Of a stretch of 61,835 bases of DNA, positions 3,308-60,129 are shown piece by piece; within the stretch, counting starts at the first letter, position 1, and every line of letters begins with the position of its first letter. This DNA comes from a bacterium. GTDB taxonomy: Bacteria > Sysuimicrobiota > Sysuimicrobiia > Sysuimicrobiales > Segetimicrobiaceae. The notes under the pieces are model-generated. The model did not search any database and was not told where the DNA came from. It saw only the letters and a list, made by a program, of their open reading frames with translations. Location of the stretch: contig DASSXJ010000154.1 of NCBI GenBank assembly GCA_035703895.1, forward strand, positions 1-61,835, read 5' to 3'. A program made the position numbers and the translations under genes.

Positions 3308-4390
3308 GGAAGACTCCGCACGAGTGAGAAACACTGGATTGCATCGGTTCATCTCTTGGAAGGGGCGAAGACAATGGATAAGGGTGACCAGAGGCCGTCG
3401 GCTGCGTTTCTGGACTTGATCAACGGCTTCCGTGTATCGCAGGCGATCCACGTCGCCGCGACGCTCGGGATCGCCGACCTCTTGAGGGACGGCCCGCGGA
3501 GCTCCGATGAGCTGGCGGCGGCGACCGGTACCCACGCGGGCGCGCTGTACCGGTTGCTGCGCACGCTCGCCGGCGTGGGGGTGTTCCGGGAGGACGTGGA
3601 CCGCCGCTTCGGCCTGACACCGCTCGGCGAGTGCCTGCGGTCCGACGCGCACGAACCACTGGGTCCGTGGGCCGTGCACATTGGTCAGCCGTATGTGTGG
3701 CAGGCGTGGGGGCATCTGCTGGAGAGCGTGCGCACCGGGGAGAACGCCTTCCGCCGCGTCCACGGCGTGAGCGTGTGGGACTACTACGCGCGCAATCCAA
3801 CGGCGGGAGCCATCTTTGACCGCGCCATGACGGGTCACTCCCGTCTCCAGGCCGATGCCGTGCTCAAGGCCTACGACTTCGGGCGATTCGGGTGCGTGCT
3901 GGACGTGGGAGGCGGTCATGGGCTGCTCCTTTCCGCGGTCCTGGCCAAGCACCCGTCGCTCCGCGGCGTGCTCTTCGATCAGCCGCATGTCGTCGTGGGG
4001 GCCGAACCCGTGCTGCAGGCGGCCGGGGTTGCCGATCGCTGCCAGGTCGTCGGCGGAGATTTCTTCGAGGCGCTGCCCGATGGCAGTGACGCTCACGTGA
4101 TGAAGTTTATCCTCCACGACTGGGAGGACGCGCAAGCGACGGCCATTCTGCGGACCTGCCGCCGCGCCATTGCGCCGAACGGGAAGCTGCTGGTCATCGA
4201 TAGCGAAATTAGCCCGCCGAACGAGGGGGCCCTGGGCAAGCTCCGCGACCTGACCATGTTGGTGCATACCGGAGGACGAGAGCGCACGCGCGAAGAGTGG
4301 ACGGCTCTCTTTGCCGCGGGCGGGTTCCGGCTGGTGCGTGCGACCCCGACCGAGGCGGGCTTGAGCATCATCGAGGGCGTCCCGACGTAG
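3308..4390 (+). repeat. Tandem duplication, unit 2 (leader plus methyltransferase gene)
   Basis: Second unit of the direct duplication, equal in length to unit 1 (1083 bases). About 94 bases between the stop of unit 1 and this leader are not obviously related to the sequence before unit 1. Conservation of the leader suggests it holds a regulatory or translation signal, although no clear sigma-70 promoter is visible in it. Confidence 0.85.
3374..4390 (+). CDS. SAM-dependent O-methyltransferase (Methyltransf_2 family), copy 2
   Basis: Paralogue of the preceding gene, also 338 residues and without indels relative to it. The winged-helix dimerisation domain, SAM loop LDVGGGHG near 179, GDFFE and catalytic HDW at residue 248 are all conserved. 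The frame continues upstream to 3161, but ATG 3374 follows a GGAAGGGG site and aligns exactly with the start of copy 1. Differences cluster in the middle segment that lines the acceptor pocket in family members (for example GQPEYW versus GQPYVW, and HGMNTWEYY versus HGVSVWDYY), so the pair may methylate related but different substrates. The gene is followed closely by the gamma-glutamyltransferase-like gene. Confidence 0.9.
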   Translation: MDKGDQRPSAAFLDLINGFRVSQAIHVAATLGIADLLRDGPRSSDELAAATGTHAGALYRLLRTLAGVGVFREDVDRRFGLTPLGECLRSDAHEPLGPWAVHIGQPYVWQAWGHLLESVRTGENAFRRVHGVSVWDYYARNPTAGAIFDRAMTGHSRLQADAVLKAYDFGRFGCVLDVGGGHGLLLSAVLAKHPSLRGVLFDQPHVVVGAEPVLQAAGVADRCQVVGGDFFEALPDGSDAHVMKFILHDWEDAQATAILRTCRRAIAPNGKLLVIDSEISPPNEGALGKLRDLTMLVHTGGRERTREEWTALFAAGGFRLVRATPTEAGLSIIEGVPT

Positions 4391-40881: not shown

Positions 40882-41876
40882 GCGTGGCGGGCGCCCGCGC
40901 GCACGCCCTCCCACACAGCGGGCATGACTTCACGCAGGAGCAGCGGGATCTGATGCTCGTAGTTGAGCGCGCCGACGCGCACCGCGATGTGACGACACCC
41001 AGCCGCCCAATATTTCAGGATCCCCTCCGCGACGACCGCCGGCGGCCCGGAGATGAGCCGGTCGAAGCTGCGAGGTCCGTAGGTCTCTGGCCAGTACCGC
41101 CGAACGTACTCTTCCGCTTCGGCGCGGGCCTTGGCCGGGTCAGGCTGGATGTTCACGAGGCTGCCGCAGCCGACGGAAAAATTGCGGAGATCCTTGCCGA
41201 TTGATGCGGCGAGGGTCTCCAGCCGCTCACGCAGGGCGCCAAACTGGGCCGGAGTCAGGCCGGTCGGGTGCCAGCCGTCCGCGTGGCGCAGGGCCCGGAG
41301 CAACATCCGGTCCACCATCTCGGGGGGGCCGTCGAGGTTGGGAGCATTGGCCAGATAGATCGGCGGGGGGGTCTGCAGGGGTTTCGGATAGGCGCTCACA
41401 TCGTCAAACTGGTGGAACCGCCCGGCGAAGGTGACGTGATCTTCTCGCCAGAGCCGCCGCACGGCTTCCAAAGTCTCCAACAGGCGGGGCACGCGGTCAC
41501 GCGTGTTCAGCCGGTAGGGGCGCATCTCGCGATCGTCGCCGCCGCCGATGCAGACGGAGAGTTCAATCCGACCCCTGCTGATCACATCGAGGCTCGCCCA
41601 CTGGATCGCAAACAGGATCGGATCGCGCAGGATGAACGTCGAGAGGCAGCCGACGTTGAGGCGAATCCGCTGCGTGCGGCCGGCCAGCGCGCCGAGCAGG
41701 GCGATGACCTCGATGCGGGGTTTCTCGAGGAGGTTGTCCCCGACGCTGACGGCCCCGAAGTGTCCAGAGGCCTCCGCCTGTGCCGCCGCATCGAGCAGCT
41801 GCTCGACGGTCAGGATGCCGAGCAGGCACCCCCGGTTCGGCAGGCTCAACGTGAACGTCGCCGGCTGGTCGGTCAC
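40878..41876 (-). CDS. LLM class flavin-dependent oxidoreductase (Mer-like)
   Basis: Luciferase-like barrel enzyme of 332 residues. It shows TLSLPNRGCLLGILTVEQLLDAA, GHFGAVSVGDNLLEKPRIEVIALLGALAGRTQRIRLNVGCL, ILFAIQWASLDVISRGRIELSVCIGGG and the later ISGPPAVVAEGILKYWAAGC. The layout follows F420-dependent methylene-H4MPT reductase-like and alkanal monooxygenase-like proteins. The GTG start overlaps the binding-protein stop as GTGA, so it is translationally coupled to a transporter gene and likely handles the imported compound or its product. Only about a quarter of positions look alike between this and the LLM protein at 26558, so they are not recent duplicates (estimate by eye). Confidence 0.85.
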   Translation of the reverse strand: MTDQPATFTLSLPNRGCLLGILTVEQLLDAAAQAEASGHFGAVSVGDNLLEKPRIEVIALLGALAGRTQRIRLNVGCLSTFILRDPILFAIQWASLDVISRGRIELSVCIGGGDDREMRPYRLNTRDRVPRLLETLEAVRRLWREDHVTFAGRFHQFDDVSAYPKPLQTPPPIYLANAPNLDGPPEMVDRMLLRALRHADGWHPTGLTPAQFGALRERLETLAASIGKDLRNFSVGCGSLVNIQPDPAKARAEAEEYVRRYWPETYGPRSFDRLISGPPAVVAEGILKYWAAGCRHIAVRVGALNYEHQIPLLLREVMPAVWEGVRAGARHA

Positions 41877-43474
41877 TTCACGATCGACGCCGTGGCGAGA
41901 TGCTCGAGAAAGCCGAGGCCGTAGGGGGTGAGGGTGAGGTCACGCACGTAGGGTTTTTTCAAGATTACTTCACGCACATGGTAGATCGGGAGCACACCGA
42001 CGTCGTCGAAGACGAGGAAGCGTTCGACCTCGGCCATTTTCCGGAGGACGGCGTCCCGGGTACGCTCGTGGTTTGCGGCATCCACCATCTTGTCGTACGC
42101 GGGGTTCACATATCCGGAGAAGTAGTTGAAGGGGGCCTTCGAGGCGAACAGCGCGAACAGGTAATCATTGGGATCGGCGATGTCCGCGGTCCACCCGGTC
42201 ACCGCGGCAAACGCGGTTCGCCTTCGCATGTCGCTCCGCCATTTGGCAATATCCAGGATCTGCACGTGCGTGTCGATCCCGAGGTTCTGCTGGATCATCG
42301 CCGCCACAACCTCAGCCGCCTCCCGCGGCCCGAATCCCCGAGGGTTCGGGCCCAGGAGCAGGGGAGGAAGTCCCTTGCCTCCGGGGTAGCCGGCTTCGGC
42401 AAGGAGGGACCGGGCTTTCGACGGATTGTACGCGATGGCAGGGAGGGGATGATACCCTGGAAGGCCGGGGGGAAGGATCTCATTCGCCGGCTGATAGAGC
42501 CCGACGAAGACCGCCTTGACGATTTCCGGTCGATTGACCGCGAGGGCGATCGCCCGCCGTATACGGGCGTCCTTGAACGGGGGATAGGCGAAGGTATTCA
42601 GCGCAAGGAAAGTGGTCGAAGCGCGGTTGTACTCGACGATCTCCTTGCTCAGCTTTGGATCCCGCCTGAGACGAGTATATTCACTCCCGGGCACCTGGAC
42701 GATGTCCAGTTCGCCCGCCTCGTACTTCTCGACGTCGACGTTCGGATCGGGAACGATCTGTAGGACGATCCGCTGGATCTTGGGGGCGCCCCCGAAGTAT
42801 GCCGGGTTGGCGGCCAGCACGATCTGGTTGCGGAGCGACCACTGCACCACCCGGAATGCGCCGGTCCCGTTGGCGTGCGTGGTGCCCCATTCCTGGCCTC
42901 CCTGTTCCACCGACTCTCGCGAGACGATGGACGAGGCGACGTGGGCGAGCCGGACGAGGAGATCGCCCTCACTGGGCCGGTCGACCTTGATCTCCAGCTC
43001 GGTCGGGCTGACCACTCTGACCCCGCGGAGGCCCGGGGCCTTTCCCGCCTGTTCGTCCTGGTACCCCTCGATCGGCGTCAGGAGGAGTTCGGCGTTCGGG
43101 GAGTTCAGCTTGGGGCTCGCCAGCCGATCCAGCGAATATTTGACATCGTTCGCGGTGACCGCTTGACCGTTCTGAAACTTGAGGCCGTCTCTCAGAATGA
43201 ACCGGTAGGTGCGGCCGTCGGGGGAGACCGTCCAGCTCTTCGCGGTGAAGGGTTTCACTTGTCCTAGTGCGGTGACCTCGAGGAGCGGCGTGTAGACGTC
43301 CTGCAGCAAGGCGGTCCCGGTCGGGTCGTCCGTCAGGGCGGGGTCGAGGGTCGTCGGATCGGCCTGGATCGAGATCCGCAGCGCCGCCTCGGTCTGGGCC
43401 CCGGCCTGCGGCGCGATCAAAGCGGCACCCAGGAGCACCACGAGTGCGGCGCACAGCGCGGTTGGTCGCAGCAT
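41873..43474 (-). CDS. Peptide-type ABC transporter substrate-binding protein (SBP_bac_5)
   Basis: Receptor of 533 residues with a Sec signal peptide (MLRPTALCAALVVLLGAALIAPQAGA). Motifs include SIQADPTTLDPALTDDPTGTALLQDVYTPLLE-type sequence at the mature N-terminus, RFILRDGLKFQNGQAVTANDVKYSLDRL, NGTGAFRVVQWSLRNQI and RRAIALAVNRPEIV. ATG 43474 follows GGAAGGGGG by about seven bases. It lies four bases after the creatininase-family gene and overlaps the LLM gene, in a three-gene minus-strand operon that faces the two permease genes. It presumably serves those permeases. Confidence 0.9.
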   Translation of the reverse strand: MLRPTALCAALVVLLGAALIAPQAGAQTEAALRISIQADPTTLDPALTDDPTGTALLQDVYTPLLEVTALGQVKPFTAKSWTVSPDGRTYRFILRDGLKFQNGQAVTANDVKYSLDRLASPKLNSPNAELLLTPIEGYQDEQAGKAPGLRGVRVVSPTELEIKVDRPSEGDLLVRLAHVASSIVSRESVEQGGQEWGTTHANGTGAFRVVQWSLRNQIVLAANPAYFGGAPKIQRIVLQIVPDPNVDVEKYEAGELDIVQVPGSEYTRLRRDPKLSKEIVEYNRASTTFLALNTFAYPPFKDARIRRAIALAVNRPEIVKAVFVGLYQPANEILPPGLPGYHPLPAIAYNPSKARSLLAEAGYPGGKGLPPLLLGPNPRGFGPREAAEVVAAMIQQNLGIDTHVQILDIAKWRSDMRRRTAFAAVTGWTADIADPNDYLFALFASKAPFNYFSGYVNPAYDKMVDAANHERTRDAVLRKMAEVERFLVFDDVGVLPIYHVREVILKKPYVRDLTLTPYGLGFLEHLATASIVK

Positions 43475-43478
43475 CAAT

Positions 43479-44288
43479 CTACCCCCTTCCTTCTATCATG
43501 GCTTCGGACCAGGGGATGCCCGGCCTCGATGAGACCCAGGGCGCGGTGCGGAGCCGTTCGGCGGCAATGACGAGATCGTCCACCAGCGCTCTGGCGATCG
43601 TCGTGCCTTTCTCCTTCGTCCCCAACGTCGCGTCACCGTACACGCCGGTATCCGAGTGGCCCGGTCCCGGCTCTCGGTGATAGGCGGATGGGACGAAGAC
43701 GCCGCGGGCATCCGGCCGCTCAGGAATCTCCGCGACCACTCGCTCGAGGCGCACCACCTCCGGGGCGATGGCGAGGAGCAGCGAGGTCTCATACTCGTCG
43801 GCGTGGCTCCCCTTCGGCTGCATGAGCAACCCGGAGATCCGCTGGGCACCGAGGTCCCCGATCCTCGTGACGCCGACGAGCAGCCGGTGCACGCGGTCGA
43901 GATCTCGTGCCACGATCTCCAACACCGGGAAGGTGGACACGCCGGTGTTCAGCACAAAGAACCTCCTGGGTCCGTGCCGGTGCATGGAAAGAATAATCTC
44001 TTTCATCATCGCCCCAAAGGTGCCCGCTTCGAGGTGGGTGCTCCCCGGAAACGCGGAGAAGTGCGGGTAGTAGCCGTATGTGACCGTGGGCATGATGATG
44101 GTTTCGACCTGCTCGGCGACGCGACGCGCCAGATAATCCGCCATGATGTGATCGGTCCCGAGGGGGAGGTGGGGACCGTGCTCCTTGGCGGCCGCTCCCA
44201 CGGGGATCACGACCAACGGGTCGGCGGTGAGGAGCGGTTCGGCCTCCGCCCACGTGAGCTGTTCCAAGAACACGCCTCGGAGTCCCAT
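43479..44288 (-). CDS. Creatininase family hydrolase
   Basis: Metal-dependent amidohydrolase-like enzyme of 269 residues. The signature VIPVGAAAKEHGPHLPLGTDH (about residues 27-47) carries the Glu, His and Asp metal ligands; FPGSTHLEAGTF and the later GSHADEYETSLLLAI supply further ligands. The family includes creatininase, the ArfB formamide hydrolase of deazaflavin/riboflavin synthesis in archaea, and MftE of mycofactocin maturation. Here the operon context is a binding protein and an LLM oxidoreductase, so hydrolysis of an imported cyclic amide is plausible. ATG 44288 is the best start. It is divergent from azlC, with about 120 bases between. Confidence 0.87.
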   Translation of the reverse strand: MGLRGVFLEQLTWAEAEPLLTADPLVVIPVGAAAKEHGPHLPLGTDHIMADYLARRVAEQVETIIMPTVTYGYYPHFSAFPGSTHLEAGTFGAMMKEIILSMHRHGPRRFFVLNTGVSTFPVLEIVARDLDRVHRLLVGVTRIGDLGAQRISGLLMQPKGSHADEYETSLLLAIAPEVVRLERVVAEIPERPDARGVFVPSAYHREPGPGHSDTGVYGDATLGTKEKGTTIARALVDDLVIAAERLRTAPWVSSRPGIPWSEAMIEGRG

Positions 44289-44409
44289 GCGCACCCGCCA
44301 TGTTCTGGCCGCGGCAGTTCTGCGGCGCCGCATCAGAAGTTGTGCTCGTGCGGGAAACGTCAGGGTATTCTCCAGGGCGGGAGGGGGTCCTGCGCGAATA
44401 GGGAGGCGC

Positions 44410-45081
44410 GTGAAGCTGGGCTGCTTTCGTTCGGGGCTCCTCGACGCGCTCCCCCTCTGGCTGGGCGTTGTGCCGTTTGGATTTGTCTACGCGGCGGTGG
44501 GACGCCGCGCCGGCCTCAGCGTGTGGGAACTTCAGCTCATGTCCATGCTCGTGTATGCGGGCGGCGCGCAGTTCACCGTCGTGCGTCTCGTCGCCGAGCG
44601 TGCCCCGCGTCATTTCCTGATCGTGGCGACGGCGCTCATCAATCTCCGGCACGTGCTCTACGGGGTCTCGCTGGCCCCGCACCTCAAGCAGGTTCGGGCC
44701 GGCGTCCGCGCGCTCGCGGCGTTCTTCATCGTCGATGAGAGTTACGGCCTCGGGATGCGGGCGTTTCTCGAGGGTCGCGGATCCGTATCCTATCTCGTGG
44801 GGGCGGGGGTCTCATTGTATCTGGCCTGGAACGTGGGGACTGCGCTCGGGATCCTCTTCACGGCGGCCCTGCCCGATCCGAGGAACCTCGGGCTCGACCT
44901 CGTGTTTCCACTCACGTTCGTGGCCTTGCTGGCCCCGCTGTTGCGGCACGCGCCGAACCGGTGGGCCGCGCTCACCGCGTTCATCGCGGGTCTGGTTGTG
45001 CTGCCGGCGTTGCCTGCCGGCGTGGGGTTCGTCGCGGCGACGATGCTGGGGATGCTCGGGGGGATGTGGGTGCGTGACTGA
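44410..45081 (+). CDS. azlC: AzlC family branched-chain amino acid exporter, large subunit
   Basis: Membrane protein of 223 residues. The AzlC hallmarks are DALPLWLGVVPFGFVYAAVGRRAGLSVWE, SMLVYAGGAQFTVV and ALINLRHVLYGVSLAPHL, followed by FFIVDESYGL. With AzlD it exports branched-chain or other hydrophobic amino acids. GTG 44410 follows GGGAGG at a short distance; upstream in-frame sequence is not membrane-like. The stop overlaps the azlD start by eight bases. Export next to four peptide-type importers could relieve amino acid overload, which is inference. Confidence 0.9.
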   Translation: MKLGCFRSGLLDALPLWLGVVPFGFVYAAVGRRAGLSVWELQLMSMLVYAGGAQFTVVRLVAERAPRHFLIVATALINLRHVLYGVSLAPHLKQVRAGVRALAAFFIVDESYGLGMRAFLEGRGSVSYLVGAGVSLYLAWNVGTALGILFTAALPDPRNLGLDLVFPLTFVALLAPLLRHAPNRWAALTAFIAGLVVLPALPAGVGFVAATMLGMLGGMWVRD

Positions 45082-45484: not shown

Positions 45485-45513
45485 TTGGTAAACGCCCACC
45501 CGAATATTACTAT
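45485..45513 (+). promoter_or_regulatory. Candidate promoter for the formate dehydrogenase operon
   Basis: TTGGTA (45485-45490) and TACTAT (45508-45513) are spaced by 17 bp in a locally AT-richer stretch upstream of fdhA. Each box matches four of six consensus bases. The start site would be near 45520, leaving a leader of about 43 bases. No clear regulator site is seen. Confidence 0.4.
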
Positions 45514-45562
45514 CTTGTTCCACGCAACCTCCTGGCATCTTCCAACGACGTTTCTGGGGGGG

Positions 45563-48500
45563 ATGATCGTGGCCACGCTCACGCGTCGAGGTTTCTTGAA
45601 ACTGACGGGGGTGGGCGTGGGCACGCTCGCCCTCTCAGAGCTGGGGTTCGACCTCGCCCACGCGTACCAGGTTCGTCAGACTCTCCGCATCGCCGGCGCC
45701 ACCCAATCCCACTCAGTTTGTCCGTACTGTGCCGTGGGGTGCGCGCTCGTGGCCTACACGCGGAAAGAGGCCGACGGGACGGTCAAGATCCTGCAAATTG
45801 AAGGCGACCCGGATAGTCCTATCACCGAGGGCCGGCTGTGCCCCAAAGGGGCGACGGCCATGCAACTCGCCACCTCGGCCCGGCGCGTGGAACACCCTCT
45901 GTACCGAGCGCCTGGCGCATCCTCCTGGCAGACGGTGTCCTGGGATTTTGTGCTGGACAAGATCGCCCAGCATGTCAAGGCGACCCGCGATCGGACGTTT
46001 GTTGCCACGGATGCGGCGGGCAATGTCGTCAATCGGACGGAAGGCATGGCATTCGCCGGCGGGGCGACGTTCAGCAACGAGGAAGGGTACCTCGCCACGA
46101 AGGTGATGCGCGGCCTGGGCGCGGTGTACTTAGAGCAGCAGGCCCGGGTCTGACACGGCCCCACGGTGGTCAGTTTGGCCGCCACGTTCGGAAGAGGGGC
46201 AATGACAAATCACTGGAGGGACATCAAAAACGCCGACTTGATTTTGATCAACGGCGCCAACCCGGCGGAGGCGCATCCGGTCGGGTTCCAGTGGTTCATG
46301 CGCGCCAAGCTAGATCCCGCACGCGGCCCCGGCAAGGGGGGTGGGGCCAAGATCATTCACGCCGATCCCCGCTTCTCCCGCACGTCGGCGGTGTCCGACA
46401 TCTACCTCAGGATCCGGACCGGCACCGACGTGGCGTACTATGGTGGGCTGATCAACTACGTCCTCCAAAGCGACCTTTATCACGCCGAGTACGTCAAGCA
46501 CTACACGAATGCTGCCTTCATCGTGAAAGAGGGCTACGCGTTCACCGACGGCTTGTTCAGCGGCTACGACAAGGACAAGCGGACCTACGATACGTCGACG
46601 TGGGCGTACGAAGGCGACGAGGCCGCAAACGCGGCCTTTGAGCGCACGCAAAAAGAAGCGCTCGCCCACGGCGAGGCCCCCTCCACGGGCGCCGGTGTCA
46701 GCTTCGCCAAGCGGGACGACACCCTCCAGAATCCGCGTACGGTGTTCCAGCTGCTGAAGAAACACTACGAACGCTACACCCCGGAGATGGTCTCGAAGAT
46801 CACCGGCATCCCCCCGGAGGACTTCCTGAGGGTCGCGAAGCTCGTCGGCGAGATGGGCCGGCCCGACAAGGTGATGACGATCGTGTACGCGGTCGGGCTC
46901 ACCCATCACACCACCGGTAGCCAGATGATTCGGACGGGCGCCGTGCTGCAGCTCCTGCTCGGCAACATCGGGCGCCCCGGCGGGGGCATGAACGCCGAGC
47001 GCGGGCACGCCAACATCCAGGGGAACACCGACAACGCGATCTCCTGGGATATCCTGCCCGGATACATGCGCGTCCCGGCACCCGGCCAAAAGTCCCTCAG
47101 CGATTACGTCGCCAAGAGCGCGTCGAAAAAGTCCGACCCGCATTCCTGGAACTTCTTCGGCACCAACTACCGGAAATTTACGGTGAGCCTGCTCAAAGCC
47201 TGGTACGGAGATGCGGCCACCAAGGACAACGACTTTGCCTTCCACTATCTCCCCAAGCCGGCCGGGAATTCCTCGTGGATGTCCATCTTCGACCAGGCCC
47301 TGCGGGGGAAGATGGAAGGGCTGTTCCTCTCCGGCATGATGGCGACGAGCATCGGTCCCGACGTCAACCAGGTGCTCCAGGCGCAGGCAAACTTGAAATG
47401 GCTCGTGGTCATGGATCCCTTCCCGACCACCAGCTCCGAGTTCTGGCACGCTCCCGAGATGGACCCGAGCAAGGTCCAGACCGAGGTCTTCCACATCCCG
47501 TGCACGCACTGGATCGAGAAGGCCGGCTCGTTCACGAACAGCGGTCGGTGGGTGCAGTGGAAGGACCAGGTCATCCCTCCGCAGGGCGAGGCCCGGGATG
47601 ACCAATCGGTCCTCGCCGACCTTTTCCAGCGCGTCAAGGCACTGTACCAGGCCGATCAGCAGAACGGCAAGTTCCCAGACCCGATTCTGCACCTGACGAT
47701 GGACTACAAGGACCCGCGAAAGCCCGAGCTGGACGAGATCGCCCAGGAGATCAATGGCAAAGACCTCAAGACGGGGAAGCGCCTGGCGACCTTCGCCGCG
47801 CTCAAGGACGATGGCACCACCACCGCGGGCAACTGGATCTACACCGGCTTCTATCCGGAGGCGGGCAATCTCGCCAAGCGACGCGATGGGGTGCAGGACC
47901 CCGCCAAGAACGACCCGACCGGGATGGGGTTCTATCCCGGGTGGGCGTGGAGCTGGCCGCTCAACCGGCGGGTGCTGTACAATCGTGCCTCGGCAGACCT
48001 CGATGGCCAGCCCTGGGATCCAAAACGCCCCGGGATCCAGTGGGAGGGCAAGAAGTGGGTCGGCGATGTGCCGGATTATCCTCCCACGATGGACCCCAAG
48101 GATCCGAAAGCGTGGCTGCCGTTCATCATGAACGGCGAGGGCGTCGGGCGGCTGTTCAGCAACTCGCTGCTCGACGGGCCGCTGCCCGAGCACTACGAAC
48201 CCGTCGAGTCGCCGATCGAGAACCCGCTGCATCCCCAGGTATCCGCGTCGCCCGTGGCCTTCCTCTACGACCAAGCGGCCGGCCGACCCAACCGCTTTGG
48301 GACCGCGGCGGAGTTCCCAATCATCGCCACCACCTACCGCCTCACGGAGCATGAACACTACATCACCCAGCAGGTCCCGCACCTTGTCCAGCTCCAGCCA
48401 GAGGCCTTCGTCGAGTTGCCCGAGGGCCTGGCCCGGGAGAAGGGGATCAAGAACGGCGATATGGTGCGCGTGCTGTCAAAACGCGGCAAGATCGAGGTGC

Positions 48501-48721
48501 GCGCGATCGTGACCAAGCGGCTCGGCCAGGTGGAGGTCGGCGGCAAGAAGGTGTGGCAGCTGGGCATCCCCATTCACTGGGGCTTCGTCGGTATCTCGGC
48601 CGAGCTGTACCCGGAGAAGTCCAAACACTGGCTGGTCAATCAGCTCACCCCGTTCGTGGGTGACGCAAACGCCAGGACGCCCGAGTTCAAGGCGTTCCTC
48701 GTGAACGTTGAGAAGATGTGA
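45563..48721 (+). CDS. fdhA: Formate dehydrogenase major (catalytic) subunit, selenocysteine-containing
   Basis: Molybdopterin (bis-MGD) enzyme oxidising formate to CO2, FdnG/FdoG type, 1052 residues counting selenocysteine. An in-frame TGA at 46151 is residue 197 and lies in EQQARV-Sec-HGPTV, matching the E. coli FdnG site (Sec196). The sequence continues in the same frame as SLAATFGRGAMTNHWRDIKNAD, so the gene is intact. A Tat signal (LTRRGFLKLTGVGVGTLALSE) leads to the 4Fe-4S motif CPYCAVGC near 53. The C-terminal MGD-binding domain holds ITTKR-like and IHWGFVG stretches. ATG 45563 directly follows a G-run; GTG 45569 has better spacing and is an alternative. Predicted periplasmic, paired with the Fe-S and NrfD-like subunits; fdhE begins at its stop (TGATG). 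Confidence 0.95.
46151..46183 (+). promoter_or_regulatory. Selenocysteine UGA codon and bacterial SECIS hairpin
   Basis: The UGA at 46151-46153 is followed by a hairpin at 46165-46183: eight consecutive pairs (six Watson-Crick, two G-U) with a three-base loop GUU at 46173-46175. The loop begins 20 bases after the UGA, within the spacing needed by SelB in known bacterial SECIS elements, and the apical GU is the conserved contact. The first coding triplets after UGA (CAC GGC CC) also match E. coli fdhF. Confidence 0.85.
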
Positions 48722-49611
48722 TGGGACCGCAGGCCGCGGCAGTTGGGCAGTGGACGGAGCGCCGCCGTCGCGCCACGGAACTGGCGGAGCGCTGGCCGTT
48801 TGCCACAGAGGTGCTGACGTTTTACACGGCGCTTCTCGACGCGCAGGAGCGGGCCTATGAAACGGCCCGGGCGGAATTGTCCGATCCTTCTCGGACAGTC
48901 CCCTATGCCGTCGCCCGCGTCCTGCCCATGGTGAGAGCGGTGACCACTGCCACCGGGCCCCAGAAGCTGGCGCGCGCGGTGGCCGATCTGCCTCCAGCTG
49001 GAGGGAACGGGTCCACCGCACAGTGGGAGGAGAAAGTGAAGCGCTGGCTCGACGGCGGGGAACTGTCCGCAGTCGACCGCTACATGGCTCGCGCCGCGGT
49101 CGGACCGGTGCTCGAGGCGCTCGGCCAGGCATTCGGCCGAGTGTGGGACGGACCGCGCGATGCGCGCCACTGTCCCCATTGCGGCGGCCTGCCCCAAGTC
49201 AGCGTCCTCGCCTCTACGGGCGAGGACCTGGTCGCCCCCCGTCGCTATCTGGAGTGCTCCCGGTGCGCCCGGCGGTGGGCGTATCCACGCATGACCTGCG
49301 CCGGATGCGGCGAGACCGAGGCCCACCACCTACCGATCTTTGCCGAGGAGGGCACCACCGAGGCCGAGGCGACAGGCACGGTGGTACGGGGATTGGGGGC
49401 CGCTCCCGCCGGGACGCCGGCCGCCGGCGCGCGCTTTCGGCACGTCAGCATCTATGCCTGCCGGAGTTGCTCTCGCTATCTGCTGAACGTTGATCTCAGC
49501 CGGGATGCCCGCGCGGTTCCGGTGGTCGATGAGATGGCAGCCGTGCCGCTTGATCTGTACGCCAGGGAACAGGGCGTCATGAAGATCGTGCCCAATCTCA
49601 TGGGCCTCTGA
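48721..49611 (+). CDS. fdhE: Formate dehydrogenase accessory protein FdhE
   Basis: Cytosolic maturation protein of 296 residues needed for active respiratory formate dehydrogenases. The C-terminal half has the rubredoxin-like metal motifs of FdhE: CPHCGG near 150, CSRC near 180, CAGC near 194 and CRSC near 246, followed by YLLNVDLSRDARAVPVVDEMAAVPLDLYARE. The N-terminal half is helical and less conserved. The start overlaps the fdhA stop as TGATG; a GTG three bases earlier is equivalent. FdhE in E. coli binds the catalytic subunit, fitting the coupled expression seen here. Confidence 0.92.
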   Translation: MGPQAAAVGQWTERRRRATELAERWPFATEVLTFYTALLDAQERAYETARAELSDPSRTVPYAVARVLPMVRAVTTATGPQKLARAVADLPPAGGNGSTAQWEEKVKRWLDGGELSAVDRYMARAAVGPVLEALGQAFGRVWDGPRDARHCPHCGGLPQVSVLASTGEDLVAPRRYLECSRCARRWAYPRMTCAGCGETEAHHLPIFAEEGTTEAEATGTVVRGLGAAPAGTPAAGARFRHVSIYACRSCSRYLLNVDLSRDARAVPVVDEMAAVPLDLYAREQGVMKIVPNLMGL

Positions 49612-50460: not shown

Positions 50461-51381
50461 ATGGCAGAGCACTTCGTTCAGCCTCCGCACTGGGAATGGT
50501 ACATTCTCGGGTATTTCTTCCTCGGCGGGCTCAGTGGGGGCACGTATGCGCTGGCGACCATGCTGAGGATCTGGGGCGGTCCTCGCGACGAGACAACTGT
50601 CAGGATCGGGTTCCTTACGGCCTTTCCGCTGCTCGTGGCATGTCCCATCTTGCTCTCGATCGATCTTGGGCAGCCGCTCCGTTTCTGGCACATGCTGATC
50701 GAGACCACGCCCGGCCACGTGGGCCTGGTGTTTAAGTACTGGTCGCCGATGTCGGTCGGGAGCTGGGTGCTGCTGATCTACGGCGTCTTCGCGTTTGTCT
50801 CGTTCCTGGAGGTGCTGGTGCCCGGTGGCCTCTCGCTGCCCCGTATCCTCTCCGGCGGGATCGGCCGCATTTTTATCGTCGTGGGGTCTATCCTGGGTCT
50901 CTTCGTCGCATCGTATACCGGGGTGCTGCTGAGCGTCTCGAACCAGCCGATTTGGAGCGACACCTGGGCCCTCGGAGGTCTCTTCCTCGCGTCGAGCCTG
51001 GGCGGGTCGGCGGCGCTGCTCTCCTGGTTGGCGCGGCATCGCCCGGAGGCGGAGGGGACCGAGCGCCGCCTTTTCTTTGCGGACCGCTCCTTTGCGCTGT
51101 TGGAGCTAGTCTTGATCGCCCTATTCTTTGTGAACCTCGCGGGCGCCGGGACGCTGGCGAGAGCCCTTGCGGGACCCTGGGTAGGATTTTGGGGGTTGGT
51201 GGTCGCGAGCCTTCTCCTCCCGCTCGCCGGCCTGGGGAGGCCACGCACCGCGGTCGCGGCCGGTTCGGGCTCGGCGCCTGCCGGCCGCGCGGCGGGTGGA
51301 TCGCGTACCATGGTCCTTGCCGGCGTGCTGATCGGTGTGCTGTTGATGCGGTTCGTGGTGATCTTCAGCGCACAGTTCTGA
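50461..51381 (+). CDS. NrfD/PsrC family membrane subunit of formate dehydrogenase
   Basis: Polytopic membrane protein of 306 residues with about eight helices. It begins HFVQPPHWEWYILGYFFLGGLSGGTYALATML, the NrfD-family first helix, followed by PILLSIDLGQPLRFWHML and a GSWVLLIYGVFAFVSFLEVL helix. NrfD-type proteins oxidise or reduce quinones without haem. Here it replaces the cytochrome b556 (FdnI) of the enterobacterial enzyme, so electrons from formate should enter the quinone pool through a haem-free subunit. The C-terminal part contains an Ala/Gly-rich loop before the last helix. Three bases separate it from fdhB. Confidence 0.9.
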   Translation: MAEHFVQPPHWEWYILGYFFLGGLSGGTYALATMLRIWGGPRDETTVRIGFLTAFPLLVACPILLSIDLGQPLRFWHMLIETTPGHVGLVFKYWSPMSVGSWVLLIYGVFAFVSFLEVLVPGGLSLPRILSGGIGRIFIVVGSILGLFVASYTGVLLSVSNQPIWSDTWALGGLFLASSLGGSAALLSWLARHRPEAEGTERRLFFADRSFALLELVLIALFFVNLAGAGTLARALAGPWVGFWGLVVASLLLPLAGLGRPRTAVAAGSGSAPAGRAAGGSRTMVLAGVLIGVLLMRFVVIFSAQF

Positions 51382-51493
51382 TCTAGGCTCGCACTCGCGC
51401 CACCTCCCCGCACCGACGGCCGGATTGACACGGCCCAACAAGAGACTCGACAATAGACTCACCTGCCGGACCCACTCCTCGTCAGGCAGGACG

Positions 51494-53278
51494 GTGAGGC
51501 GCGTGTCGCGACTCGAAGACGCCGTAGAGCGGTTGCTGGCGGCGACGACCCCGCTGCCGTTGGAGTCCGTCCCCATCTGGGAGGCGGACGGGCGAGTCGC
51601 GGCCGCAGATGTGGACGCGCCGGGGCCGGTTCCCCACTTTCCCAGGCCCGCGATGGACGGCTATGTGTGCCACGACGCGGATCTCCGCGACGCGTCCCCC
51701 GGCCGGCCCGCGATCCTCCGGATCACCGGCGCGGTCCGCATGGGAGACCTGCCGGGCCGCGGTCCCGGGCCGGGGGAAGCGTGGTCGATCACCACGGGGG
51801 CGCCGCTGCCGGAACGCGGCGATCGGATCCTGCCCGTGGAGGCGGTCCGTCTCGCCGGTGATCAGGTGAGGGTTGAACAGCCACCCAGCGGGAAAACACA
51901 CATCGTCACCGCCGGGGAGGCGATTCGCGAGGGCGCCCCGTTGATCAGGAGGGGCGAGGTCATCCGGCCGGCAGGTGCCGGGGCCCTGGCCGCGTGTGGT
52001 GTCGGGACGGTGCGCGTGCACCGCCGCCCCCGTATCGCTCTTGTCTCGACCGGAGACGAACTGGTCGATGTGACCGAGGCGGCGGCGCCGCTCCCGCGCG
52101 GGCGGGTGTTCAACAGCAACGCCGTGACCCTGGGCGGCTTGCTCCGCACCCTCGGGTGTGAGGTCCAGTATCGCGGCATCGTGCGTGATGCTCCGGAGGA
52201 GTTGCGCGCCGCATTTGCCGCGCTCCGCGACGAGTTCGACGTGGTGCTGTCGACAGGGGGAGTGTCGATCGGCCGGCACGACGCGGTTCACCGCACCTGG
52301 CTCGACCTCGGGGCGCAGCGGATCGTCGGTCGCGTCGATCTCAAGCCCGGCGGTCCATTCTTTGCGGGGCGGTTACGCGACTCCTGGGGCGTGGGCCTTT
52401 CGGGCACCCCGGTGGCCTGCCTCGCCGCGTTCCACCTGCTGGTGCGCCCATTCTTCGCGCGATTGGCAGGGCAGCGGCACGCGGTCAGACCCCTCCAGCA
52501 GGTCACGCTCGCAGATGCGATCGGCCGCCCCACGGACCGGATGCGCGCGCTATGGGCACGCACGCATCCTGCCGAGTCCGGACGCACGATGGCCACGGTT
52601 CTCGACGGCGACGATGTCGGCGACTTCGCCTCGCTGCTCCACGCCACCGCGTTGGTGCTCATCCCACCGGGATCCCCTCCGCTGCCTGCCGGATCCCGCG
52701 TCACGGCGCTGTTGTTGGACCGCGAGGAGGACCGCGATCGATTGGTCGTCACCCCGCCCCGCCCGGGCCCACTCGTGATCGGAGTGGTCGGGGAATCGGG
52801 GAGCGGGAAGACGACCGTGATCGTCGATGTGGTTCGGAGGCTGGCGGAAGACGGCATCCGCGTCGCGGCCGTAAAGCACGCCGCCCACGGGTTCGACCTT
52901 GACCGCGAGGGGAGCGACAGCGCCCGCGTGGCCGGTGCGGGCGCGGCATTGGTGGTGCTGGCGGGGCCCACGGAGACCGTGCTGCGCATCACCGCCCCGC
53001 TGCGCTCTCCTGATCATGCCGCGGGCCTTGCGACCCTCGTCGCCGAGCAGATCTGGGGAGAGCTCCCCGCGCTCGTGCTCGTCGAGGGCTTTCAACACCC
53101 GTCCGGACCCGTCATTACCGTCGGCCCGCAGAAGCCGGGCGCAGCGGCGGGGGAGGTGCTCGCTGCGGTTCTCGCGGTGAACGGCGTGAACGGGCAGCGG
53201 CTGGAGACGGAGCTCCAGCGGGTCTCAGAAGCCGTGCGCTCTCGAGTACGGGCAGGACAAGCGGAATGGCCTCGCTGA
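51494..53278 (+). CDS. MoeA-MobB fusion protein (molybdenum cofactor synthesis)
   Basis: Bifunctional protein of about 594 residues from GTG 51494. The MoeA domain (about 1-420) inserts molybdate into adenylated molybdopterin; motifs are RPAMDGYV, SITTGAPLP, LVSTGDELVD, GGVSIGRHD and LKPGGPFFAG, with GLSGTPVACLAAF in place of the usual GLPGNPVS. The MobB domain follows from about residue 427: a Walker A GESGSGKTT at 433-441, VAAVKHAAHGFDLDREGSDS and VLVEGFQ. MobB aids attachment of GMP to make bis-MGD, the cofactor form used by formate dehydrogenase. Placement inside the fdh cluster supports dedicated cofactor supply. The frame extends upstream to 51425, but the conserved MoeA start (RLEDAVERLL) favours 51494 or GTG 51503. 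Confidence 0.9.
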   Translation: MRRVSRLEDAVERLLAATTPLPLESVPIWEADGRVAAADVDAPGPVPHFPRPAMDGYVCHDADLRDASPGRPAILRITGAVRMGDLPGRGPGPGEAWSITTGAPLPERGDRILPVEAVRLAGDQVRVEQPPSGKTHIVTAGEAIREGAPLIRRGEVIRPAGAGALAACGVGTVRVHRRPRIALVSTGDELVDVTEAAAPLPRGRVFNSNAVTLGGLLRTLGCEVQYRGIVRDAPEELRAAFAALRDEFDVVLSTGGVSIGRHDAVHRTWLDLGAQRIVGRVDLKPGGPFFAGRLRDSWGVGLSGTPVACLAAFHLLVRPFFARLAGQRHAVRPLQQVTLADAIGRPTDRMRALWARTHPAESGRTMATVLDGDDVGDFASLLHATALVLIPPGSPPLPAGSRVTALLLDREEDRDRLVVTPPRPGPLVIGVVGESGSGKTTVIVDVVRRLAEDGIRVAAVKHAAHGFDLDREGSDSARVAGAGAALVVLAGPTETVLRITAPLRSPDHAAGLATLVAEQIWGELPALVLVEGFQHPSGPVITVGPQKPGAAAGEVLAAVLAVNGVNGQRLETELQRVSEAVRSRVRAGQAEWPR

Positions 53279-53357
53279 TCCTGAGGGCGGCATCGATTGA
53301 CGCTCTTCTGGGCCGATGCTACCATGGCCGCGACGACGTCACCTCTCGAGGTCGGCA

Positions 53358-54284
53358 GTGGCAACCCCAATCAATCGTCTAGCGGCAATGGAGGGCGATC
53401 CAGGTCCCGAGCCTCCTCGCACGAGCACGACGAGACGGCGCGTCGGCCAGGTACAGGGAGGCGCGGCGCGGATTCGCGACGACGTGCTGGCGGTCGAAGA
53501 GCCGCTCGAGATCCGCCTGTACCCCGGCGACGGCCGGCCACATGTGCAGATCTCCGTCACCATGCGCACTCCAGGGCACGATTTTGAGCTGGCCGCGGGC
53601 TTCCTCTTCACCGAAGGGATCGTGCGGGACGCGGGGCAGGTCGACCATATCAATTACTGCGCGGACCATACACTCGAGAGCGCGCAGCGCTACAATATCG
53701 TGAACGTCTTCCTGCGACCGGGCGTGCCGTTCGACGCGGAGCGCCTCCGGCGGAACTTCTACACGACCTCGAGTTGCGGGGTATGCGGAAAGGCCTCGAT
53801 CGAGGCGATTCAAGTCCGGGGCATCTGCCCCATCCACGACGACGCGTTCGCAGTGGAGGGCGAGGTGTTCGCCCGGCTCGGCGGTGCCCTGCGCGGGTCG
53901 CAGGCGATCTTTGACAAGACCGGGGGGCTGCACGCGGCCGCGCTCTTTGACAGCGCCGGTCAACTGCTCGCCACCCGGGAGGATGTGGGACGGCATAACG
54001 CAGTGGACAAGCTCGTCGGCGATGCGTTTCTCCGGCACCAGCTCCCACTCAGCCGGCGCCTGCTGATGGTCAGCGGCAGGGCGAGCTTCGAGATCATGCA
54101 GAAGGCCGCCGCAGCCGGCATCCCCCTGGTGGCGGCCGTGTCCGCCCCCTCGAGCCTCGCCTGCGACCTCGCCCGTGCCTTCGGGATGACCCTCGTCGGG
54201 TTTCTGCGGGGCGATCGGTTCACGGTGTACACCGGGTCGCACAGGATCCGGCGGGACGGAACACCGCTCACCAACGTCGAGTAA
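53358..54284 (+). CDS. fdhD: Formate dehydrogenase accessory sulfurtransferase FdhD
   Basis: FdhD transfers sulfur from cysteine desulfurase to the Mo-bisMGD cofactor, which formate dehydrogenases need for activity. Signatures visible are VEEPLEIRLYPG, TPGHDFELAAGFLFTEGIV, the catalytic loop with CGVC (TTSSCGVCGKASIEAI), GGLHAAALFD, REDVGRHNAVDKLVG, GRASFEIMQKAAAAGIPLVAAVSAPSSLA. Length is about 308 residues from GTG 53358, with AGGT a few bases upstream; ATG 53388 and ATG 53316 are other starts in frame. It follows moeA-mobB by about 80 bases and precedes the FdhF/YdeP-like gene by ten. Confidence 0.93.
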   Translation: MATPINRLAAMEGDPGPEPPRTSTTRRRVGQVQGGAARIRDDVLAVEEPLEIRLYPGDGRPHVQISVTMRTPGHDFELAAGFLFTEGIVRDAGQVDHINYCADHTLESAQRYNIVNVFLRPGVPFDAERLRRNFYTTSSCGVCGKASIEAIQVRGICPIHDDAFAVEGEVFARLGGALRGSQAIFDKTGGLHAAALFDSAGQLLATREDVGRHNAVDKLVGDAFLRHQLPLSRRLLMVSGRASFEIMQKAAAAGIPLVAAVSAPSSLACDLARAFGMTLVGFLRGDRFTVYTGSHRIRRDGTPLTNVE

Positions 54285-54294
54285 CCCTCTTCCT

Positions 54295-56562
54295 GTGACC
54301 GTCCGCCAGCGCGGCGACCGCACGCGATCCCGGCGGTATGTAGGGCCCTCGCCTATGGGGTTGGGCTACACGAAGCCCAACCACTATCTCGAGATGGCCA
54401 AGGTGCTCGGCGAGAACCGCGATCAGCTCGCCTACGCCTGGCGGATCCTCAACAACGGGTGCTGCGACGGATGCGCGCTCGGCACGGTCGGATTGCGCGA
54501 TTGGACGATCAGCGGAATCCATCTTTGCACGATCAGACTCAAGTTGCTTCGGCTCAACACGATGCCCGCCGCGGATGTCCGGGTGCTGGAACACCCCGAA
54601 CGGTTGCGGGGGCTTTCGGCCAAATCGCTGCGGCGGCTGGGACGACTTCCCTATCCGATGGTCTGGCGTCGGGGGGAGCCCGGCTACCGGCGCGTTGCCT
54701 GGGACGAGGCGCTCACCGTCTGCGGCGAGCAGGTCCGCCGGGTAATGGCCGAAGATCCCGACCGGATGTACTTCTATATGACGTCCCGGGGCATGACGAA
54801 CGAGGCCTACTTTGTCTTCCAGAAGGTCGCCCGGTTCCTCGGGACCAACAACGTCGACAACGCCGCCCGCGTGTGCCATGCGGCCAGCACCACGGGGCTC
54901 AACGCGACGATTGGATACGGCGCGACGACGTGTTCCTACACCGATTGGATCGGGACGGATCTGTTGCTCCTTATCGGCACCAACCTCGCCAACAATCAGC
55001 CCGTGGCCGTCAAGTACATCGACGAGGCCAAGAAGCGGGGGACGCGCGTCGTGGTGGTCAACCCCTATCGCGAGGAAGGCCTCGATCGTTACTGGGTCCC
55101 GTCATCGTGGGATAGCGCGGCGTTCGGCACCCGCATCATGGATGCGTTCTTCCAGGTCGGCGTCGGCGGGGATGCGGCGTTCCTGACCGGCGCGCTCAAG
55201 CACCTCATCGAGACGAACAGGGTCAACGGGGACTTCATCGACCGGTACACGGTCGGGTTCGACGACCTGCAGCAGTACGCGCGGGCAGTGCCGTGGGGCG
55301 CACTCGAGCGCGCGGCGGGGACGACCGCCGCGGAGATGCGCCGGTTTGCGGATCTCTATGCGGGCGTCGAGACGTCGATCTCGGTGTGGTCGATGGGCAT
55401 CACCCAGCACGAGCACGGAGCGCAGAACGTCTTTGCGATCAGCAACCTGGCTCTTGCCTTGGGGCGCATCGGCCGCCCCCACACCGGCCTGATGCCGATA
55501 CGCGGCCACTCGGGTGTCCAGGGGGGTGCCGAGGTCGGAGCCGTTCCGAACGCATACGGGCTGGGGCGCAAGGTCGGCGACCCCGAGACGATGGCGGCGA
55601 TGAAAACGTTCTGGGGCTTCGACGTTCCCGGGAAGCCCGGGCTCACCGCCGCGGCGTCCATGAACGCCGCGCATGACGGGAAGGTCGCCCTGGTCTACTC
55701 CGTGGGAGGCAACTTCCTCGAGACGCTCCCCGACCCAGTGTACGTACGGGAAGCCCTGGATCGCATTCCGGTCAAGATCTTTCAGGATATCGTGATCAAT
55801 CCGATGATGCTCCTCGCCCCCGTCGAGGTCTCGATCATCCTCCCGGCGGCCACACGATACGAGACTCGGGGCGGGGTGACGGAGACGACGACAGAGCGCC
55901 GGATCGTCTTCAGCCCGGAGATTCCGGGGCGTCGGATCGGCGACGCCAAACCGGAATGGGAGATTCCCATGCTCATCGCCGAGCGGGCATGCCGCGACCG
56001 CCGCCATCTGATCCACTTCGATTCGACCGCGCAGATTCGTGACGAGATCGCGCGGGTCATCCCGCTCTATGACGGGATCCAGCGGCTCCGCCAGAAGGGG
56101 GACCAGGTGCAGTGGGGCGGACCGAGGCTGTGTGCCGACTACCGCTTCAACACCCTAGACGGCAAGGCGCGCTTCGTGATTCCTCACTGGCCGGAACGCG
56201 ATACCCCGCCCGGAATGTTCTGCGTCACCACCCGCCGCGGGAACCAGTTCAACAGCATGGTGTGGGGTGAGCACGATCCCCTCACGGGTTCCGACCGGGA
56301 TGACGTCATCATCTCGGCCGAAGATGCACGCCGCCTGACCCTGAAGAAAGGCGATCCCGTCCTCTTGCGCTCAGAGGTGGGAAGATTTTGGGGCAAGGTG
56401 AGGATCGCGGAGATCGCTCCGGGCACCTTAGCGGTCCACTGGCCTGAGGCCAATGCGTTGATCCGGACAGGCCGTTACGACCCGAGCTGTGGCGAGCCGG
56501 ACTACAATGCGATCTGCGACCTCAGCGCGGTAGTACCATCGGCCGGCGACGAAGGCCGCTAG
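54295..56562 (+). CDS. Molybdopterin oxidoreductase, FdhF/YdeP family (cysteine form)
   Basis: Cytosolic bis-MGD enzyme of 755 residues, the length of YdeP-type alpha subunits. No Tat or Sec signal is seen. An N-terminal Cys cluster (NNGCCDGCALG near 55-62, with another Cys in GIHLCTIRL) matches the reduced Fe-S motif of YdeP proteins. The active-site position aligned with selenocysteine of FdhF is Cys194 in NAARVCHAASTTGL. MGD contacts lie in LLIGTNLANNQPVAVKYIDEAKKRGTRVVVVNPYRE, and the C-terminal domain has FCVTTRRGNQFNSMVWGEHDPLTG. It has its own GTG start after fdhD. It may be a formate dehydrogenase or an oxidoreductase for another substrate; E. coli YdeP is linked to acid resistance, with unknown chemistry. 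Confidence 0.88.
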   Translation: MTVRQRGDRTRSRRYVGPSPMGLGYTKPNHYLEMAKVLGENRDQLAYAWRILNNGCCDGCALGTVGLRDWTISGIHLCTIRLKLLRLNTMPAADVRVLEHPERLRGLSAKSLRRLGRLPYPMVWRRGEPGYRRVAWDEALTVCGEQVRRVMAEDPDRMYFYMTSRGMTNEAYFVFQKVARFLGTNNVDNAARVCHAASTTGLNATIGYGATTCSYTDWIGTDLLLLIGTNLANNQPVAVKYIDEAKKRGTRVVVVNPYREEGLDRYWVPSSWDSAAFGTRIMDAFFQVGVGGDAAFLTGALKHLIETNRVNGDFIDRYTVGFDDLQQYARAVPWGALERAAGTTAAEMRRFADLYAGVETSISVWSMGITQHEHGAQNVFAISNLALALGRIGRPHTGLMPIRGHSGVQGGAEVGAVPNAYGLGRKVGDPETMAAMKTFWGFDVPGKPGLTAAASMNAAHDGKVALVYSVGGNFLETLPDPVYVREALDRIPVKIFQDIVINPMMLLAPVEVSIILPAATRYETRGGVTETTTERRIVFSPEIPGRRIGDAKPEWEIPMLIAERACRDRRHLIHFDSTAQIRDEIARVIPLYDGIQRLRQKGDQVQWGGPRLCADYRFNTLDGKARFVIPHWPERDTPPGMFCVTTRRGNQFNSMVWGEHDPLTGSDRDDVIISAEDARRLTLKKGDPVLLRSEVGRFWGKVRIAEIAPGTLAVHWPEANALIRTGRYDPSCGEPDYNAICDLSAVVPSAGDEGR

Positions 56563-56838: not shown

Positions 56839-57063
56839 AGTCCTCCCTGGACTCAAAAATTCTCACTACCTTCATATACCCAGATCGAGGGGGGCCACAT
56901 TCCCATTCCAGAGAGTTCTTGCAAAATTGTTACAGGGCGCAGCCACGATCACTCGATCGCCTCAGGAGGGCCTCCGGAGGATGCCCCCTCCGGCCCTCGA
57001 ATACCTAGCCAGCCGCGGGCCCTGGGGCCGGCGCGCCAGACGCTTCGCCGCGAGGATGCATCG

Positions 57064-58395
57064 ATGGCCAAAGTGTACGGGCAGACGGTGTTTGAGCAAT
57101 ACCTTCGGGCCAACCGCCGGTCGAAGGAGCTCAACGACCGCGCCCGGTTGCTGCTCCCGGGGGGCATAACGCGGACCTCGGTGTACTTCGACCCCTTCCC
57201 GCCGTACATGGAGTATGGCGCAGGGTGCCGGATCCACGACGTCGACGGCAACGAGCGGATCGATTTTTCCAATAACTACACCGCGCTCATCCTCGGGCAC
57301 TGCCCGCCCGCGGTCGTGGACGCGGTGCAGGCGCAGGTGACTCGCGGCAGCGCATTCGCGGCGCCGACCCGCTACGAGATCGATCTCGCCGGGACCATCA
57401 CCGAGCGGATCCCGTCGGTCCGGCGCGTGCGGTTTGCGAGCTCGGGGACCGAGGCCGTGATGTTTGCGCTCCGCCTGGCCAGGGCCTTCACGGGCCGCCG
57501 GAAGATCGCCAAGGCCGAGGGGGGATTCCACGGCACCTCCGAGTATGCCGCCGTCTCGGTGAGCCCCGATCTGCACCTGGCGGGCGACGCGCGCACCCCC
57601 GTGTCCCTGGCGTCCGCGCAAGGGGTGCCCGACCGCGTCGTGGAGGACGTGGTGGTGTTTCCCTTCAACGATATCGACGCCACGGAGGCGATCGTTCGGC
57701 GGCACCGCGACGATCTGGCCGCCGTGATCGTGGAGCCGGTGCTGGGATCGAGCGGGATGATCCCCGCGCGACCGGAATACCTGCAGGCGTTGCGCGAGAT
57801 CACGGCCCGCCACGGCGTTCTCCTCATCCTCGATGAGATCATCACGCTGCGCCTGGCGCCCGGCGGCGCGCAGAGCCTATACGGGGTGGCGCCCGACTTG
57901 ACGGTCATGGGAAAGATCATCGGCGGCGGTTATCCCGTGGCGGCGTTCGGCGGCAGGGCCGAGATCATGGCGCTGCTCGATCCCGAGGGCGGACGCCCCC
58001 CGATTCCCCAAAGCGGCACCTTCAACGGGAACCCGATCGGGATGATCGCCGGGCTCGCCACCCTGCGCCAGCTCACACCGGCCGTCTACGACCGCCTCAA
58101 CGGGATGGGCGATGATCTCCGCCGCCGCCTCAGGGAGCTGTTTGCGCGCAAGGGCGTTCCGGCGCAGGTGACGGGGATGGGGTCGCTCCTGAACCTCCAC
58201 TTTTCCGGCGTAGAGGTCACGGACTTCCGGACGATGCGCACGGGGGACGGCGGACGGCTTCGGCAGGTGTTCTTCGGCCTCCTCAACGAGGGTATCTACC
58301 TCGCTCCGCGCGGCATGGCGTGTCTCTCGACCGCGATGGGCGATGAGGAGATCCTCGCGTTCGTGCGCGCCACCGAACGGGCGCTTGAAACCTGA
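57064..58395 (+). CDS. Class III aminotransferase, glutamate-1-semialdehyde aminomutase-like
   Basis: PLP enzyme of 443 residues. Motifs are LLPGGITRTSVYFDPFPPYMEYGAGCRIHDVDG, FASSGTEAVMFALRLARAFTGR (phosphate-binding), LLILDEIITLRLAPGG with the Asp that binds the pyridine nitrogen, and the Schiff-base lysine K284 in MGKIIGGGYP. The family includes HemL and many omega-aminotransferases; GSA aminomutase itself normally accompanies haem genes, absent here. The operon-like position before hydantoinase genes, 11 bases apart, suggests amino-compound catabolism instead. ATG 57064 fits the family N-terminus and has GAGG upstream; the open frame before it (from 56752) is not conserved. Confidence 0.88.
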   Translation: MAKVYGQTVFEQYLRANRRSKELNDRARLLLPGGITRTSVYFDPFPPYMEYGAGCRIHDVDGNERIDFSNNYTALILGHCPPAVVDAVQAQVTRGSAFAAPTRYEIDLAGTITERIPSVRRVRFASSGTEAVMFALRLARAFTGRRKIAKAEGGFHGTSEYAAVSVSPDLHLAGDARTPVSLASAQGVPDRVVEDVVVFPFNDIDATEAIVRRHRDDLAAVIVEPVLGSSGMIPARPEYLQALREITARHGVLLILDEIITLRLAPGGAQSLYGVAPDLTVMGKIIGGGYPVAAFGGRAEIMALLDPEGGRPPIPQSGTFNGNPIGMIAGLATLRQLTPAVYDRLNGMGDDLRRRLRELFARKGVPAQVTGMGSLLNLHFSGVEVTDFRTMRTGDGGRLRQVFFGLLNEGIYLAPRGMACLSTAMGDEEILAFVRATERALET

Positions 58396-58406
58396 GCACG
58401 CCTGCG

Positions 58407-60128: not shown

Positions 60129-60129
60129 C

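Follow-up and report, generated by a model that had tools for sequence, protein, structure and literature searches.

The window, a 61,835-nucleotide stretch of DNA from a member of the Segetimicrobiaceae (Sysuimicrobiota) that we take to be a little-studied soil bacterium, encodes an apparent formate dehydrogenase that is interrupted by a TGA codon at position 46151. This arrangement raises the question of whether the codon is an error, is read as one of the ordinary amino acids or directs the insertion of selenocysteine. We compared the gene, the sequence downstream of the TGA codon and the rest of the genome (a draft assembly of 4.38 Mb in 337 contigs, 97.2% complete) with profiles, structures and homologous loci from other genomes. 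On the combined evidence, we assign a probability of about 0.96 to the reading that TGA 46151 is decoded as selenocysteine via SelB and a hairpin (Table 1), within the gene for a probably exported respiratory formate dehydrogenase.

Table 1. Features of the formate dehydrogenase locus (window coordinates) and the basis of each assignment
Feature	Coordinates	Strand	Basis
fdnG-type formate dehydrogenase alpha gene	45563..48721	+	TIGR01553 match, 1KQF chain A alignment, translation
Probable twin-arginine (Tat) signal, MIVATLTRRGFLKLTGVG...AHA	45563..45664	+	RRxFLK motif and subsequent hydrophobic stretch
In-frame TGA, selenocysteine U197 (Sec196 of E. coli FdnG)	46151..46153	+	Aligned to X196 of 1KQF in ARV-X-HGPTV
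Spacer between UGA and hairpin, 11 nt	46154..46164	+	Sequence and fold
SECIS hairpin GGUGGUCA-GUU-UGGCCGCC, 8-bp stem	46165..46183	+	Fold, Rfam SECIS_3, covariation, loss in Cys homologues
FdhE-like accessory protein	48721..49611	+	Pfam FdhE_central and FdhE_C above gathering; TIGR01562 under cut-off
Iron-sulphur (beta) subunit, 4Fe-4S ferredoxin type, C-terminal hydrophobic segment	49627..50457	+	Pfam Fer4_11
NrfD/PsrC-type membrane subunit, probable quinone-reducing anchor	50461..51381	+	Pfam NrfD (59.4 bits) and NrfD_2 (64.2 bits), above gathering
MoeA-MobB fusion, molybdenum cofactor maturation	51425..53278	+	Family profile match
FdhD sulphurtransferase for formate dehydrogenase	53316..54284	+	NF001943, 309 bits (cut-off 269)
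Second molybdopterin oxidoreductase, FdhF/YdeP family	54295..56562	+	TIGR01701, 628 bits (cut-off 582)

An fdnG-type gene with an in-frame TGA codon

Standard ORF calling yields two frames in place of one gene, 45485-46153 and 46166-48721, as the first-pass annotation had anticipated, and its claim that the frame is unbroken across the UGA is confirmed, with TGA 46151-46153 lying in the frame of a conserved fdnG-type gene. The start of this gene is the ATG at 45563, within a longer called frame that begins with TTG at 45485, and its true stop is the TGA at 48719-48721; when read through, the product comprises 1052 amino acids, with selenocysteine at residue 197. The joined protein exceeds the cut-off of TIGR01553 (FDH-N alpha; 1294 bits, cut-off 814.2), matches Pfam families PF04879, PF00384 and PF01568 above gathering (the 4Fe-4S N-terminal, molybdopterin and dinucleotide-binding domains, respectively), and its best solved relative is chain A of 1KQF, E. 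coli FdnG (E 1.9e-290). In this alignment, U197 stands opposite the selenocysteine X196, which bears out the earlier match of the flanking residues to FdnG, and U197-H198 correspond to Sec196-His197 of 1KQF, that is, to the Sec/Cys followed by His that characterizes the metal site of FDH-N alpha subunits. The RRxFLK leader suggests that the product is exported through the Tat pathway, by analogy with the FDH-N family.

The hairpin downstream of the TGA codon

Folding recovers the previously noted eight-pair hairpin with a GUU loop, 11 nucleotides after the UGA, with all coordinates right; two of the pairs are G-U wobbles and the apical loop occupies 46173-46175. The nucleotides that define the E. 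coli-type SECIS, namely U17, which is bulged out of the stem, G23 and U24 (PMC8659212), are all in register in the window, at 46167, 46173 and 46174, respectively. Here U17 is predicted to form a wobble pair with G31, a prediction that cannot separate a wobble from a 1x1 mismatch. Bacterial SECIS elements have been delineated by a loop of 3-9 nt, an upper stem of 4-16 bp, a G at loop position 1 or 2, a distance of 16-37 nt from UGA to loop and a minimum free energy (MFE) of at most -7.5 kcal/mol (PMC13188914). The window hairpin, with its 3-nt loop, 8-bp stem, G first in GUU, UGA-to-loop distance of 19 nt (46154-46172) and MFE of -12.2 kcal/mol, is within all these limits. The Rfam SECIS_3 model (RF01989) matches positions 46148-46206 with 51.4 bits (E 2.4e-11 in a 250-base search), short of its gathering score of 63, and there is no match in the window at the gathering threshold.

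The folding energy of the hairpin is not beyond chance expectation when compared with dinucleotide shuffles (z from -0.13 to -0.70, and +0.55 for the 90-nt context), nor is it better than that of synonymous recodings of the same peptide, as would be expected if a conserved, GC-rich peptide-coding sequence merely happened to form the hairpin and the hairpin had no role. We nevertheless consider this explanation highly improbable because the hairpin shows compensatory changes, the rare AGT codon is retained with the GU loop, and the GU hairpin is lost in Cys homologues. A stem of 8 bp with a GU loop arises in only 0.33% of 200,000 synonymous recodings made with local codon usage. Across the relatives, the upper five pairs are paired in 98.4% of cases, and three of the five have changes on both sides, with compensatory double changes at columns 18-30, 19-29 and 21-27. 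Among 38 distinct relatives, 17 double-changed cells were observed, compared with a shuffled mean of 2.3, and none of 500 shuffles reached 17, these controls being of a kind that does not remove relatedness among the sequences. At 18-30, replacement of G-C by C-G alters two third codon positions (GTG to GTC and GCC to GCG) and leaves the protein unchanged. Structures slid along the sequence are at most 54% paired, and the eight-pair form is 98.6% paired in the 26 sequences of that type.

U17, G23 and U24 are invariant in all 38 distinct TGA sequences. The constancy of U17 says little, given that this nucleotide occupies the middle position of a Val codon and is retained in Cys homologues as well. 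G23-U24 is encoded by AGT or GGT; the window uses AGT, which accounts for 3.9% of the Ser codons in its genes. The four Cys homologues found (TGC or TGT) have the loops CGC, CUC, GCC and CGC and broken stems, and one of them retains the Ser, encoded as AGC. The conservation of G23-U24 is informative, unlike that of U17. The case for a hairpin beyond chance is therefore one of specific arrangement and comparative evidence, with no support from folding energy alone.

A predicted unbroken-stem form of the SECIS element

In the window, an Ala codon (GCC) takes the place of the Pro codon (CCN) found in most Proteobacteria examined, so that G31 faces U17 and the predicted stem is unbroken. Only two of the 11 unbroken-stem loci tested (L080 and L026) pass the SECIS_3 gathering threshold, compared with all seven proteobacterial members of the bulged type (80-85 bits). 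It is conceivable, although we rather doubt it, that these loci represent a distinct FDH-N SECIS subclass common to the fdnG genes of five phyla (Sysuimicrobiota, Chloroflexota, Dormibacterota, Eremiobacterota and Actinomycetota), with U17 facing G31 in an unbroken 8-pair stem instead of bulging out; such elements would be read by SelB proteins that need no free U17 bulge or that flip U17 out of a U-G wobble. A literature search for the bulged U yielded no papers. The selD SECIS hairpins of the lineage, when examined for an apical GU, turned out to have other loops (e.g., GGC, GGA, GAC and UGA), leaving a lineage-wide GU loop rule unsupported.

Selenocysteine machinery and the identity of the decoded residue

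SelA, SelB, SelC and SelD, all of which the organism had been predicted to encode, are present in its genome. The genes for SelA (555 bits) and SelB (359 bits, with the winged-helix domains SelB-wing_2 and wing_3) adjoin on contig C81, SelD (393 bits) is encoded on contig C205, and tRNA-Sec (74.9 bits, anticodon UCA) is on contig C336; selA-selB and selC are thus on separate contigs of this fragmented assembly. SelD has an in-frame TGA of its own in CAG-U-ASKLGP, at the catalytic position (L018, 1531-1533; G000, C205, 6700-7620), and is predicted to be a selenoprotein as well. A phage-type tyrosine integrase gene (L190, 3942-4763, minus strand) is located 47 bases upstream of selC (tRNA-Sec at 3805-3894, minus strand), and one further genome of the family (L121) encodes an integrase with 64% identity close to its selC; a short repeat of the tRNA was sought in the 4.8-kb selC contig and none was found.

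Codes in which UGA is read as a different amino acid are known from other bacteria, and the codon could in principle be translated by a Cys-tRNA(UCA) or be reassigned to Trp or Gly throughout the genome. We regard this possibility as very improbable considering that the genome carries the full set of SelA, SelB, SelD and tRNA-Sec, and that the hairpin occurs only alongside TGA. Genome-wide reassignment is further contradicted by the use of TGA as the ordinary stop in seven of the 11 window genes checked, the fdnG-type gene included.

One scan of GTDB genomes retrieved 45 loci, and in all 43 in which the homologous codon could be located it is TGA (44 of 44 with the window); these loci are in records of Sysuimicrobiota, Chloroflexota, Dormibacterota, Eremiobacterota and Actinomycetota. 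After the addition of Sysuimicrobiota and plasmid copies, the tally is 71 TGA and three Cys codons, with the window's gene and one other gene counted twice each, and a further set of homologues contributes six more TGA and one more Cys codon. The fdnG gene of E. coli plasmid pCFSAN004179G (L169) has Cys (TGT) at this position and lacks the GU hairpin, unlike that of another E. coli plasmid (L166). The least probable alternative, that the TGA arose through a sequencing or assembly error or through a mutation disabling a Cys gene (a pseudogene), could draw on the draft state of the 337-contig assembly, but the recurrence of TGA at the same codon in 43 loci from independent assemblies excludes an error of either kind, the 1052 codons are otherwise open and conserved, and the SECIS features track the TGA.

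Selenocysteine use across Sysuimicrobiota

The closest fdnG genes are 81-83% identical to that of the window (best segments) and include that of Terrabacteria group bacterium ANGP1, which is Candidatus Segetimicrobium genomatis (Segetimicrobiaceae, Sysuimicrobiota) in NCBI. Among 43 genomes of Sysuimicrobiota (CSP1-3), selA is present in 34, selD in 35 and FDH-N in 13, and matches to the tRNA-Sec model exceed the cut-off in 37; the weaker matches are probably Ser-type tRNAs, like L002. Each selD gene detected at E <= 1e-60 across the phylum bears one TGA, except for one Cys copy in G030. A second type of formate dehydrogenase (TIGR01591) with one in-frame TGA occurs in many Sysuimicrobiota (L196-L206), and of the 16 matches to this type 15 contain one TGA; the window's own genome contains no match of this type at the threshold used.

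Selenocysteine use is a general trait of the phylum that persists without fdnG, which is one user among others, given that 26 of the 30 genomes without an FDH-N match still have selA and that TGA also occurs in selD and in the second formate dehydrogenase type. The first-pass deduction that the machinery is present holds, but it is not the fdnG-type gene that marks selenocysteine use in this lineage. The seeming occurrence of TGA-bearing fdnG without selA in G020, G039 and G040 is probably apparent only. Assembly gaps explain the first and the last of these: in G040, 90 bases separate tRNA-Sec from the end of the 31557-base contig C14, and a partial selB-like match begins at the edge of the contig carrying tRNA-Sec in G020; a similar gap is likely to account for G039. 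Contig C34 of G030 (L194, 14.7 kb) encompasses a Cys-type selD, tRNA-Sec, selB, selA, fdhE and a Burkholderia-like fdnG. This second compact set, in a genome of the same genus with 6% contamination, reflects either lateral transfer or a foreign contig.

A genome paper on this phylum from 2024 covers fdhA in the context of the reductive glycine pathway, and selenium goes unmentioned in its main text (PMC11604079). A literature search for selenocysteine combined with Sysuimicrobiota returned no papers.

The gene cluster and a model of its function

The start of the FdhE-like gene overlaps the fdnG stop (TGATG), and the order fdnG-fdhE-beta-NrfD is kept in most relatives with sufficiently long loci, from several phyla. 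The beta subunit scores 167.8 bits against TIGR01582 (FdnH-type) and does not reach the cut-off of 334.7, and a cytochrome b556 gamma subunit (FdnI) was not found at the cluster, where the adjoining membrane gene is of the NrfD type. From these profile matches, the alpha subunit is assigned to the FDH-N family and the predicted complex is not of the E. coli FdnGHI type, because it has an NrfD partner in place of cytochrome b and a beta subunit under the FDH-N beta cut-off. The formate dehydrogenase identified in the first-pass annotation is thus retained, with its name refined from fdhA to fdnG/fdoG-type (FDH-N alpha) and its membrane partner assigned to the NrfD type. There is no in-frame stop within the gene for the second oxidoreductase. 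Taken together, the gene content points to an exported enzyme encoded beside its own maturation genes. The cluster is flanked by genes for a family-5 solute-binding protein, a creatininase-type hydrolase and AzlC (41873-45081) and by those for a class-III aminotransferase and hydantoinase B and A (56914-61833).

What we observe directly is the codon, the hairpin and the way it covaries, the full gene set and the operon; the efficiency of decoding, the catalysis, the localization and the electron path are inferred. SelD would make selenophosphate, and SelA would convert Ser-tRNA-Sec(UCA) to Sec-tRNA-Sec. The winged-helix domains of SelB would bind the hairpin, recognizing the apical GU and probably U17, and SelB would deliver selenocysteine to the ribosome when the UGA enters the A site. 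The product would be the catalytic subunit of a respiratory formate dehydrogenase, probably exported by Tat, with selenocysteine as a ligand of the Mo or W bis-pterin site. The enzyme would oxidize formate to CO2, and the electrons would pass via its own 4Fe-4S cluster, the iron-sulphur beta subunit and the NrfD-type membrane protein to the quinone pool.

Implications

The fdnG-type gene is a further case of a well-known selenocysteine mechanism and encodes a genuine, if ordinary, selenium-containing formate dehydrogenase. The direct search shows that an uncultured phylum uses selenocysteine, with the decoding genes present in most of its genomes, where gene callers would split or truncate such formate dehydrogenases and the selenocysteine-containing SelD. 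Surveys of this phylum that take fdhA to indicate CO2 fixation should keep the exported, probably respiratory enzyme apart from cytosolic ones. In addition, a curated SECIS model that performs well on Proteobacteria misses most of the tested members of the unbroken-stem group.

Comparison with known systems

The similarity to E. coli FdnG (FDH-N alpha, 1KQF) extends over the full length and includes the selenocysteine (residue 196 in FdnG and 197 here), the motif ARVUHGPTV, the 4Fe-4S domain and the twin-arginine leader. The partners differ: E. coli FDH-N has FdnH and the cytochrome b556 FdnI, whereas the window encodes an FdhE-like protein, a shorter beta subunit and an NrfD-type anchor. With the FDH-N type bacterial SECIS of Rfam (SECIS_3), the window element shares the position, the 11-nt spacer, the U17/G23/U24 register and the 3-nt loop, but its U17 faces G31 within eight predicted unbroken pairs and its score is lower than those of the seven proteobacterial members (51.4 versus 80-85 bits). 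Further counterparts come from Chloroflexota, Dormibacterota, Eremiobacterota and Actinomycetota (fdnG, L023-L066); most of these genes are 69-83% identical and have the same TGA and hairpin, and where the locus is long enough their gene order is that of the window. In a few, pair 18-30 is C-G and not G-C, or pair 19-29 is mismatched.
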